From Vulcanimicrobiota bacterium (GTDB taxonomy: Bacteria; Vulcanimicrobiota; Vulcanimicrobiia; Vulcanimicrobiales; Vulcanimicrobiaceae): a DNA stretch of 43,426 nt. Positions 6,988 through 10,614 of this stretch are shown piece after piece. The notes under the pieces are model-generated. The model searched no databases. It was not told the DNA's origin and was given only the letters and a program-made list of their open reading frames with translations. Every line of letters starts with the position of its first letter. Position 1 is the first letter of the stretch. A program made the position numbers and the translations under genes. The stretch covers positions 1-43,426 of the forward strand of contig JAQBPK010000216.1 of assembly GCA_028287565.1 (NCBI GenBank), in the 5' to 3' direction.

Positions 6988-7410
6988 TCACATTCGCTTG
7001 TTGATCGTGCCGCGACAGCCTGGAACACCGCACGTGCAGCGCTTGCGGTCGGAGTGCAAGCTCGACACGTAGTCGATCGTGATCTCTTCGCCGCGCCGGA
7101 TATCGCGCAGTGCGAGCACGAGCAAGCGCCCATGTACGGTTTGCATGAAGCTGTTCGGCCGGCACGAGTGGTTGATGTAGTGCGTGCCGTTGCCGCCGCG
7201 CGAGCCGTCGATGCTCCAGCGGTGATCGAGGCCGCTGATGCGCAGAACGCGCCGGTGCCCGCGCCGTTCGGCCTCCGCGTTGGTGATCTTCTCGCCGGTG
7301 TACTCGGCGATCTTCCGCCGGCGTTTGAACGGAACCGTTGCGAAACAGCCCTTGCCGTGGATGGCTGATTTGGCCACGGCGAGCCCGGGTGCGAGATTCA
7401 TCGCGGGCAT
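6988..7410 (-). CDS. SET domain protein-lysine methyltransferase
   Basis: This compact 140-aa SET-domain protein would transfer a methyl group from S-adenosylmethionine to a lysine side chain of a protein target. Seen in order: GKGCFATVPFKR (19-30, the G-x-G SAM-binding entry), GTHYINHSCRPNS (75-87, containing the hallmark NHSCxPN), EEITIDYV (108-115, with the catalytic Tyr) and a post-SET zinc cluster CTCGVPGC (125-132). All core residues are present, so it should be active. It is near minimal SET length with no extra domain. The ATG at 7410 has GAGG 5 bases upstream; a second ATG three codons later is possible. It is transcribed divergently from the UGA-containing gene at 7443, with only 32 bp between starts. 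Confidence 0.9.
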   Translation of the reverse strand: MPAMNLAPGLAVAKSAIHGKGCFATVPFKRRRKIAEYTGEKITNAEAERRGHRRVLRISGLDHRWSIDGSRGGNGTHYINHSCRPNSFMQTVHGRLLVLALRDIRRGEEITIDYVSSLHSDRKRCTCGVPGCRGTINKRM

Positions 7411-7442: not shown

Positions 7443-7856
7443 ATGAAGAACGAAGTCGTCATCGGCGGTATCACGGTCGGCGGACAGCCGTCGCAAGCCG
7501 AGCTCGCGTCCGGCCGGTTTCAGAACGTCGTCAATATCCGCCGGCCGGAGGAGCATGGCAACATCACGGCCGATGCGCTTGCAGGAAGCGACGTCCGCTA
7601 CGCCTCCGTGCCGTTCACGAGCGACACGGTCACTGAAGCAGACATCGACCGGATTCGCGACGCCGTCGCCGCGAGTGAAGGCGCGGTGCTCATTCATTGA
7701 GCAGGCGGAACGCGCGCCGCGGTCGCGGCGGGAATCGTCAGCGCGGAGCGAGACGGCACGGGCGCGCCGGGAGCGCTCGCAGCGATCGCTGACGCGGGAT
7801 TCGACATCGAAGACTCGCCGTATCCGGAGTTCATCCGCCGGTATTTCGCCGGCTGA
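7443..7856 (+). CDS. DUF442-like phosphatase-fold protein with in-frame TGA at the catalytic cysteine (candidate selenoprotein)
   Basis: From the ATG at 7443 the frame encodes 85 residues, a TGA at 7698-7700, and 51 more residues to a TGA at 7854-7856 (137 aa if the first TGA is read). The N-terminal part has family segments GGITVGGQPSQAELASG and VVNIRRPEE of the DUF442 / beta-lactamase-hydrolase-like branch of the tyrosine-phosphatase/rhodanese world. The active loop in that family is H-C-x-x-G-x-R. Here it reads VLIH-[TGA]-AGGTRAAVAAG, so the TGA replaces exactly the nucleophilic Cys. The frame after the TGA stays in register with the family and ends in DAGFDIEDSPYPEFIRRYF. A hairpin follows at 7715-7730. 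Either this is a selenocysteine enzyme, or a one-base TGC/TGT-to-TGA nonsense change or assembly error. Confidence 0.6.
7715..7730 (+). promoter_or_regulatory. Hairpin downstream of the in-frame TGA, candidate bacterial SECIS
   Basis: CGCCGC and GCGGCG form a perfect 6-bp stem closing a GGUC loop. The GGU of the loop begins 21 nt after the TGA. In the known E. coli fdhF element the conserved GGU sits in the apical loop about 19 nt after the UGA, within an AGGUCU loop, and is read by SelB. Opening the last pair here gives a CGGUCG loop. GC-rich DNA makes hairpins easily, so this alone is weak; its position and loop bases raise its value. Confidence 0.45.
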
Positions 7857-7872
7857 TCACCATTCGGCCTCG

Positions 7873-10614
7873 CTACGCCGCTACGAAATGTGCGAGGTAC
7901 GGCGCTGTTCGACTCGCGCGCACGTTTGCGACCGTCTCCGGCGGGCCCGCTGCGACGATGCGGCCGCCCTCGTCGCTCGCGCCCGGGCCGATATCGATCA
8001 CCCAGTCGCTTTCGGCTGCGACGTGCATGTCGTGCTCGATCGTGATCACGGTGTTGCCCGAATCGACCAGCCCGTGCAGTTGCGCCATCAGCTTCTCGAC
8101 GTCCGCGGGATGCAGTCCGGTCGTCGGCTCATCGAGCACGTAGAGCGTGTCGCCGCGCTGCGTGCGCTGCAGCTCGGTGGCGAGCTTGATCCGCTGCGCC
8201 TCGCCGCCGGAGAGCTCGGTCGCAGGCTGCCCCAGCCGCAAGTAGCCGAGCCCGACCTCGCGCAAAACGCGCAGCGAGCGGCACACGTGCGCCTCGTCCG
8301 CGAAGAAATCCCACGCGGCGTCCACCGTCAGATCCAGCACGTCGGCGATGGTCTTGCCGCGGTACGTGATCTTGAGCGTCTCGGGGTTGTAGCGCGCGCC
8401 GTGACAGGCCGGACACGGCGCGTAGACACTGGGAAGAAACAGCAGCTCGACCATCACGAACCCTTCGCCCTCGCACGTCGGGCAGCGGCCCTTCGCGACG
8501 TTGAACGAGAAGCGTCCCGCATCGAAACGGCGCGCGCGCGCCTGTTTCGTCGCGGCGAACAGCTTGCGCACGGAATCGAACAGGCCCGTGTACGTGGCGA
8601 GGTTCGAGCGCGGCGTGCGCCCGATCGGCTTTTGATCCACCGTCACCAGGCGCTTCACGCGCTCCATACCGCCGGCGATGCGGCCGCCGGTCGGAATCGC
8701 GGGCGCACGTTCGAGCTCGTCGCGGTCGTCGTCGTCCGGCGCCGTCGCGGTGCCAAGGTGCGTCGCGACCAGCTCGACCAGGGCCTGGCTCACCAAGCTC
8801 GATTTCCCCGAGCCCGAAACGCCGGTGACCGTCGTGAACGCGCCGAGCGGAAACGCGACGTCGAGCTCGTGCACGTTGTTGCGCGTTACACCCTCCAGCC
8901 GCAGCCAATCGTGCAACGTGCGCGGCGCTCGCCGCGGTACGGCGCCGTCACGGCCCGCGCTACTGCCGCCGCTACGCGCGGTTCCGATGCCATTGTCTGC
9001 GCTGCGGCTGCCGCTACCGCTGCTATTGCGGGCGCTACTGCCGTTGTCAGTCCCGGTGCCGCTGTCGAATAGATAACGCCGCGTCACCGACGCGTCGACC
9101 CGTTGCAGTCCGTCCGGTGGACCGCTGTACACCACGTGCCCGCCGTGCCGGCCCGCGGCGGGTCCGACGTCGACGATCCAGTCCGCGTGACGGATCACGT
9201 CGATCTCGTGCTCCACCACGAACAGCGAGTTTCCCGACGCCTTGAGCTGATCGAGCGCCCGCAAGAGCGCCTCGGTATCCACCGGATGCAGTCCCGCGGA
9301 CGGCTCATCGAGCACGTACACCACGCCGAACAGATTCGACCGCACCTGCGTCGCAAGGCGCAACCGCTGCAGCTCGCCGGGCGATAGCGTCGGCGTGCTG
9401 CGCTCGATCGTCAGGTACCCGAGCCCCAGATCGAGCAGAACCGAGAGCCGCCCGACGAGATCCGCCGCGATGCGCTGCACGACGATCGCCTTTTCCGGAT
9501 GCTCCGCCGCGAACTTCTTCAAGCCGGCTGCGTCCGGCTGCGAATACGGCTGGAACATCGCGATCAGCCGCGTGAGCGGCACGCGCGCCATCTCCGCGAA
9601 GTCCAGCCCGGCGAATTTGACCGAGAGCGACTCGCGGCGCAATCGTTTGCCGTAACACAGCGGGCAGTCACTGCTCACCATGAATTGCGCGGCGCGCTTC
9701 TTCATCAGCGGGCTCTGTGTGGTGGCGAACGTCTGCAGCACGTGGCGCCGCGCGCTGGTGAACGTCCCCTGGTAGCTGGGCTCTTCCTTGCGCTTGAGCG
9801 CGCGGCGCGTCTCGGCGGGCGTGTAGCCCGCGTACACCGGCACCGTCGGCTGCTCGTCGGTGAACAGCAGCCAGTCGCGGTCTTTCTTGGGCAGCTCGCG
9901 CCAAGGGCGGTCGACGTCGTAGCCGAGCGTGACCGCGATGTCGCGCAGGTTTTGACCGTGCCACGCGGTCGGCCACGCGGCGATCGCGCGCTCGCGAATG
10001 GTGAGCGACGGATCCGGCACGGCCGAGCGCTCCGTCACCTCATAGACGCGGCCCAGACCATGACACCGCGGACACGCGCCGGCAGGCGTGTTGGGCGAGA
10101 ACGCCTCGGCGTCGAGATGCTGCTGCTTGGGCGGATAGTCGCCGGCGCGAGAGTACAGCATGCGCAGCAGGTTGGAGAGCGTCGTCACGCTGCCGACCGA
10201 CGACCGCGTCGTCGGCGTTCCGCGCTGCTGCTGCAGCGCAACGGCAGGCGGCAGTCCATCGATCTCGTCCACCTCGGGCACGGCCATCTGGTGGAAAAGC
10301 CGCCGCGCGTACGGCGAAACCGACTCGAGATACCGCCGCTGCGCCTCCGCGTAGAGCGTGCTGAACGCAAGCGACGACTTGCCGGAGCCCGAGACGCCGG
10401 TGAACACGACCAGCGCCTCGCGCGGGATGTCGACGTCGACGTTCTGGAGATTGTGCTCGCGCGCACCGCGCACGCGAACGAAGCCCGTACGCTGCCGATC
10501 GGCGAGGCTCTCGGATTCGGAACCGAATGTTCGCGTACGTTTCGCGAGCGGTTGCGTCGTGCTGATGCCTAGCGAGTTTCCCGCGGACCGCCGTTCCGAA
10601 CCGCGCGCAAGCAA
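7873..10614 (-). CDS. UvrA-like ATPase (UvrA2 type, without the UvrB-binding domain)
   Basis: This tandem ABC ATPase of the UvrA family (up to 913 aa) binds damaged or drug-modified DNA. The first ATP site has [12 protein letters not shown] and the signature [11 protein letters not shown] (Pro for the second Gly); the second has [12 protein letters not shown] and [21 protein letters not shown] zinc module (spacing about 19-20) and one CPRC pair are present. Between [11 protein letters not shown] and [13 protein letters not shown] there are only about 80 residues, so the roughly 100-residue UvrB-binding domain of true UvrA is absent. This is the mark of UvrA2-type proteins linked to tolerance of DNA-binding antibiotics. 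A Ser/Gly/Asn-rich linker of about 40 residues joins the two halves. The start is uncertain: the TTG at 10614 gives a 45-residue unstructured lead, and the conserved part begins at [12 protein letters not shown]. Confidence 0.9.

Follow-up and report, generated by a model that had tools for sequence, protein, structure and literature searches.

A predicted selenocysteine at the catalytic position of a DUF442 protein from Eremiobacterota, with a probable role in sulfur transfer

The window, by which we mean the whole 43,426-nucleotide stretch of DNA that was analysed, contains a gene of the DUF442 (BLH-type) family with an in-frame UGA at codon 86, where other members have the catalytic cysteine. 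From comparative sequence evidence we consider it almost certain that this codon is decoded as selenocysteine (Sec), with the reservation that there is no evidence for Sec at the protein level. We propose that the 137-aa product is an enzyme that uses its Sec to transfer sulfur, or possibly selenium, in the manner of a rhodanese, and put the probability of this whole explanation at roughly two in three; incorporation and activity are both inferred. A preliminary description of this DNA had named the gene as a candidate selenoprotein, and this is supported by a TGA shared among 16 species, a conserved downstream frame, a covarying SECIS element and the presence of selA, selB and tRNA-Sec.

The predicted coding sequence occupies positions 7443 to 7856 of the forward strand. 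The frame that begins with the ATG at 7443 contains only one internal TGA (7698-7700, codon 86) and ends at a TGA at 7854-7856. The internal TGA takes the place of Cys in the motif VLIH-C-AGGTR, and it is assigned as U86 from the TGA/Cys column in the homologues. Alignment with 17 homologues places the active-site loop, H85-U86-A-G-G-T90-R91, at 7695-7715. The MKNE start of the DUF442 protein is kept in relatives. The read-through protein matched PF04273 (BLH_phosphatase, DUF442) with 27.3 bits, slightly more than the gathering score (26.1), and the match extends across the TGA. The preliminary description had placed this TGA at the Cys of an H-C-x-x-G-x-R loop and had reported family similarity on both sides of it; its coordinates and sequence check out. 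The gene stands by itself; its neighbours, a SET-domain gene (6988-7410) on one side and a UvrA-like gene (7873-10614) on the other, are both on the reverse strand. The SET-domain neighbour is small (140 aa, PF00856) and divergent to the selenoprotein gene.

Homologues were searched for in 60 relatives and then in 149 genomes of the phylum, giving 21 close homologues. TGA stands at the position of codon 86 in 16 species from two families (G000, G004, G007, G008, G010, G013, G015, G017, G032, G037, G038, G039, G040, G102, G129 and G130), and TGC or TGT stands in the same column in the other five (G023, G024, G025, G030 and G090). Alignment of 17 proteins showed that H85, C/U86, T90 and R91 are invariant and that conservation reaches a C-terminal F-x-x-x-YF. 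In 12 pairs, dN/dS was 0.07-0.43 downstream of the TGA compared with 0.15-0.52 upstream; judged by these ratios, purifying selection acts in the same way on both parts of the frame. The tree of Sec and Cys forms requires at least two changes of state. One Cys form, G024, which has GACC at the hairpin loop positions, sits within a Sec clade, and its sequence is consistent with a Sec-to-Cys reversion accompanied by loss of the signal. A scan of named genomes that used only Cys-type patterns found no Sec forms, its matches in Streptomyces being partial; it returned close homologues of the same family under the name Candidatus Eremiobacterota, which places the window's organism there. A search of a plasmid collection gave no match. 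There is also a second, decayed copy of the gene in G004 (L020, G004:C164:9462-9752) that keeps the TGA but is interrupted by an in-frame TAG, and neither its downstream frame nor its SECIS survives.

Downstream of the TGA is a hairpin that we interpret from covariation as the upper stem of a bacterial SECIS element (7715-7730). It consists of six base pairs (7715-7720 with 7725-7730) around a GGUC loop (7721-7724), starts 14 nt past the TGA and has its loop 20 nt past it. Published constraints on the bSECIS are a loop of 3-9 nt, a stem of 4-16 bp, a spacing of 16-37 nt, an MFE <= -7.5 and a G in the first two loop positions (PMC13188914 Fig. 2A). The window hairpin meets all of them (4 nt, 6 bp, 20 nt, GGUC), with an energy of -10.8 kcal/mol for the hairpin alone. 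By itself this is unconvincing because the window DNA is so GC-rich. Of the window's 870 TGA triplets, 94 (11%) are followed at SECIS spacing by a G[G/U] loop on a stem of 6 bp or more, and the 48-nt fold was no more stable than shuffled sequences (z -0.39). We therefore rejected the hairpin as stand-alone evidence; the preliminary description was right about its 6 bp, its GGUC loop and its start 14 nt after the TGA, and it does not hold that these features are diagnostic on their own. The specific combination of a 6-bp stem and a GGTC tetraloop accompanies only one of the 870 triplets, namely that at 7698-7700. An Rfam scan of the window gave no hits.

The case for Sec is instead carried by the comparative data, that is, by the 16 TGA and five Cys forms, the covariation of the hairpin and the Sec machinery of the same genome. 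Past the TGA, the 16 Sec-form sequences can be aligned with no gaps, the GGUC loop is invariant among them and 97.9% of the cells in the stem are paired. Compensatory changes with both sides altered occur in four of the six stem pairs, including three U-A replacements in G015 and in sequences of the G017/G013/G130 type. The covariation score was 0.444, compared with 0.225 +/- 0.032 after shuffling, and none of 500 shuffles scored as high; the signal collapsed in slid controls, and RNAalifold recovered the same stem unaided. The codons GCG and GTC, which cover the loop and closing pair, are free of synonymous change in the 16 species, whereas most codons around them do vary in this way. The corresponding positions of the five Cys homologues are paired in 76.7% of cells, with no significant covariation, and the loop positions read GACC, AGUC, AGUC, GGUG (with the closing pair broken) and CACC. 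None of these five keeps an unbroken stem together with the GGUC loop. When the window's own genome was searched with a SECIS model, the window site was the sole strong match (67.4 bits) and the next match was partial (28.2 bits); other selenoproteins were not found by this search.

The window belongs to a metagenome-assembled genome (MAG; G000) of 4.8 Mb in 399 contigs that is 83.7% complete. This MAG contains selA (500.7 bits) adjoining selB (289.8 bits, over the cut-off) on contig C288, and a tRNA-Sec on C119 (73.2 bits) to which ARAGORN assigned the anticodon tca (UCA). We did not find selD in this incomplete MAG. The best match, at 85.9 bits, was below the cut-off and ThiL-like, and was rejected as a SelD. 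Of 41 genomes searched, 38 have a selD that exceeds the cut-off, in many cases with an in-frame TGA, so an assembly gap is the simplest explanation for the lack of a match here, though it has not been shown. Of the sel genes that the preliminary description named as a check, all but selD were found. All 16 Sec-form genomes contain selA and the Cys-form genome G090 lacks it, while the other Cys-form genomes do carry it, so that the presence of selA is consistent with the Sec form without being strictly correlated with it.

We considered whether the TGA could have an origin other than Sec decoding. In an ordinary Cys gene, a nonsense mutation or an error of assembly at one base would be enough to turn TGC or TGT into TGA, and one decayed extra copy, with a TAG and a lost downstream frame, does exist in G004. 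This explanation, which the preliminary description said must be excluded, is excluded in practice because 16 genomes, each assembled separately, share the TGA; the two families involved, the conserved frame, the covarying hairpin and dN/dS well below 1 also speak against it, and we give it almost no credence. Three of the four refuting conditions set by the preliminary description (a misread Cys codon, missing sel genes and degraded downstream frames in relatives) were open to sequence analysis, and each of the three fails. It is also very improbable that the UGA is read by a suppressor tRNA or under a general reassignment of UGA, or that the functional product is truncated. Recoding is known to compete with termination in E. 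coli, and an 85-aa by-product cannot be excluded here, but UGA also terminates the gene in the window, in G007 and in G008, the internal TGA falls exactly at the Cys nucleophile, a tRNA-Sec(UCA), SelA and SelB are present and the hairpin loop fits the SECIS model.

An AlphaFold2 model of the protein had a pLDDT of 96.3 and a pTM of 0.91. Foldseek comparison of this model with the PDB returned proteins of the DSP/PTP fold; the DUF442 protein 3gxh_B had the highest TM among the matches listed (0.80), with TpbA, DUSP23 and SIW14 close behind and 2f46 at 0.72. The matches thus include genuine phosphatases, TpbA and DUSP23. By sequence, the closest solved structures are the DUF442 protein 3gxg/3gxh (E 1e-9 for 3gxg, the best) and NMA1982 (2f46, E 4.7e-7), which, unlike the window protein, are Cys proteins and whose phosphatase activity is only putative. 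The protein did not reach the curated sulfurtransferase cut-offs of TIGR01244 (34.4 bits against 85.85) or of NF040641, the Blh family (38.9 bits against 625), and both models were matched by all 17 homologues at E < 0.001.

The characterised proteins most like this one are Blh of the BigR operon and the DUF442 domain of the SQR of C. pinatubonensis (CpSQR). They share with it the domain, the DSP-like fold and a six-residue C-x4-R loop that ends in GTR (CRTGTR in CpSQR, UAGGTR here), and the Arg of this loop is essential in both (PMC5823870, PMC8533005). Sulfurtransferase activity has been measured for the DUF442 domain of Blh (PMC5823870), and sulfur transfer by CpSQR requires the loop Arg (PMC8533005). 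The window protein differs in having Sec rather than Cys as the nucleophile and in standing alone at 137 aa without an ETHE1 or SQR partner domain. Given the loop shared with CRTGTR, the activity of Blh and an unconserved D60, the candidate general acid, we favour a rhodanese-like mechanism over a phosphatase mechanism. Sulfurtransferase-type chemistry, taken by itself, is the somewhat better bet, and it is inferred from family and loop only, activity not having been shown experimentally. In the proposed mechanism, SelB and tRNA-Sec would decode UGA 86 under the direction of the hairpin at 7715-7730, and Sec would be the nucleophile of the UAGGTR loop in the full-length product. The selenolate would attack a sulfane-sulfur donor such as thiosulfate, GSSH or polysulfide, with the donor anion bound by R91 and by the amides of the loop. 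This would give a Sec-Se-S(H) intermediate, which would hand its sulfur to a thiol or cyanide acceptor.

Two other activities are conceivable for a selenoprotein of this fold. A Sec-dependent DSP-like phosphatase would suit the structural likeness to TpbA, DUSP23, SIW14 and the "putative phosphatase (DUF442)" 3gxh, as well as the name of PF04273, whose gathering score is passed. PTPs and DSPs carry the signature loop HC-x5-R. The loop H-U-A-G-G-T-R is C-x4-R in all homologues, one residue shorter, and does not meet this signature, and the position of D60 is occupied by D, E, A, Q, L or R among the aligned homologues. To our knowledge, moreover, the reactions of known Sec enzymes belong to redox or chalcogen chemistry. 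Since the loop is not HC-x5-R and there is no conserved general-acid Asp, the "phosphatase-like" label of the preliminary description is doubtful and is better replaced by DUF442, probably sulfurtransferase. The characterised DUF442 domains being sulfurtransferases (PMC5823870, PMC8533005), we regard a phosphatase as unlikely. A thiol-redox or peroxide-reducing enzyme that cycles through Sec-SeOH and a selenenylsulfide is also a minor possibility. Uncharacterised selenoproteins are mostly thought to be redox enzymes (PMC13188914). However, a resolving Cys beside the Sec (UxxC or CxxU) is lacking, and the 17-sequence alignment has no invariant Cys at any other position. Sec is easily oxidised and reduced, which leaves such an activity possible on this fold, and we rate it low.

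No neighbours of the Sec-DUF442 gene are conserved between genera, and we rejected the neighbourhood as a clue to function. In genus g28 (G037, G038 and G039; L118, L117 and L119), trx-selA-selB is found about 3 kb upstream of the gene, with an ABC-transporter ATPase gene and an RNase D-like gene in between where these were called. This location is a weak hint of a link to selenium metabolism. Because of it, and because some species have the Sec form and others the Cys form, we also considered that the enzyme handles selenium itself, as a perselenide-forming carrier that feeds selenophosphate synthetase or detoxifies reactive selenium and sulfur. This is speculative and has only a small chance of being correct; if the carrier role were true, a selenoprotein would help to supply its own element. 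In genus g6 (G015 and G102), the Sec-DUF442 gene is directly preceded by a response-regulator gene (L122:5322-6467, L129:1271-2509) that abuts its start or overlaps it, which suggests that the two form an operon.

The preliminary description had stated that Sec-containing members of this fold were, to its author's knowledge, undescribed. An inventory from May 2026, which covers 119 families and subfamilies of prokaryotic selenoproteins, indeed has no DUF442, BLH or DSP/PTP-fold entry (PMC13188914 Table 1). The nearest chemistry in this inventory is that of the rhodanese-fold selenoproteins (PF00581; forms 1, 2, 3, 4 and 5, with motifs UxxS, UxxG, CxU and UxxxxU), in particular the forms with UxxG (PMC13188914). 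As proposed for the window protein, Sec replaces the sulfur-carrying Cys of a rhodanese-type loop in these proteins, which are themselves only predicted, and UxxG also fits UAGG. The window protein belongs to another fold and Pfam family and is not homologous to them by the tests run, with no match to PF00581 at E up to 1. Earlier selenoprotein lists and deep-Sep mention no phosphatase, and we found no literature linking DUF442 to selenocysteine, or selenoproteins to Eremiobacterota, our coverage of the literature and RefSeq being incomplete. As far as the searched literature shows, no selenoprotein with the DSP/PTP-like DUF442 fold, and none from Eremiobacterota, has been reported before. The window protein adds a well-supported family to the approximately 119 known in prokaryotes and, if the proposed chemistry is correct, places Sec in sulfane-sulfur chemistry on a non-rhodanese fold. 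The natural Sec and Cys orthologues make the question of why selenium is used in a sulfur carrier testable. Annotation of genomes of this kind will probably miss the Sec-DUF442 gene or record it wrongly as a truncated protein of 85 aa.

Other genes with in-frame TGA codons were observed in these genomes. As further support for Sec decoding, the window's own genome has several genes for the alpha subunit of formate dehydrogenase (FdhA) with one in-frame TGA each (L156, L158 and L159 on C127, C124 and C211 of G000); two of them read ARIUHS, with GGTC about 18 nt past the UGA in each. Many relatives in the Eremiobacterota have a SelD with a predicted Sec at the catalytic position (GU-x-x-K; L075, L077-L082, L085 and L086); in several of these Sec-SelD genes there is, further downstream, a hairpin whose loop is of the GGUC or AGUC type.
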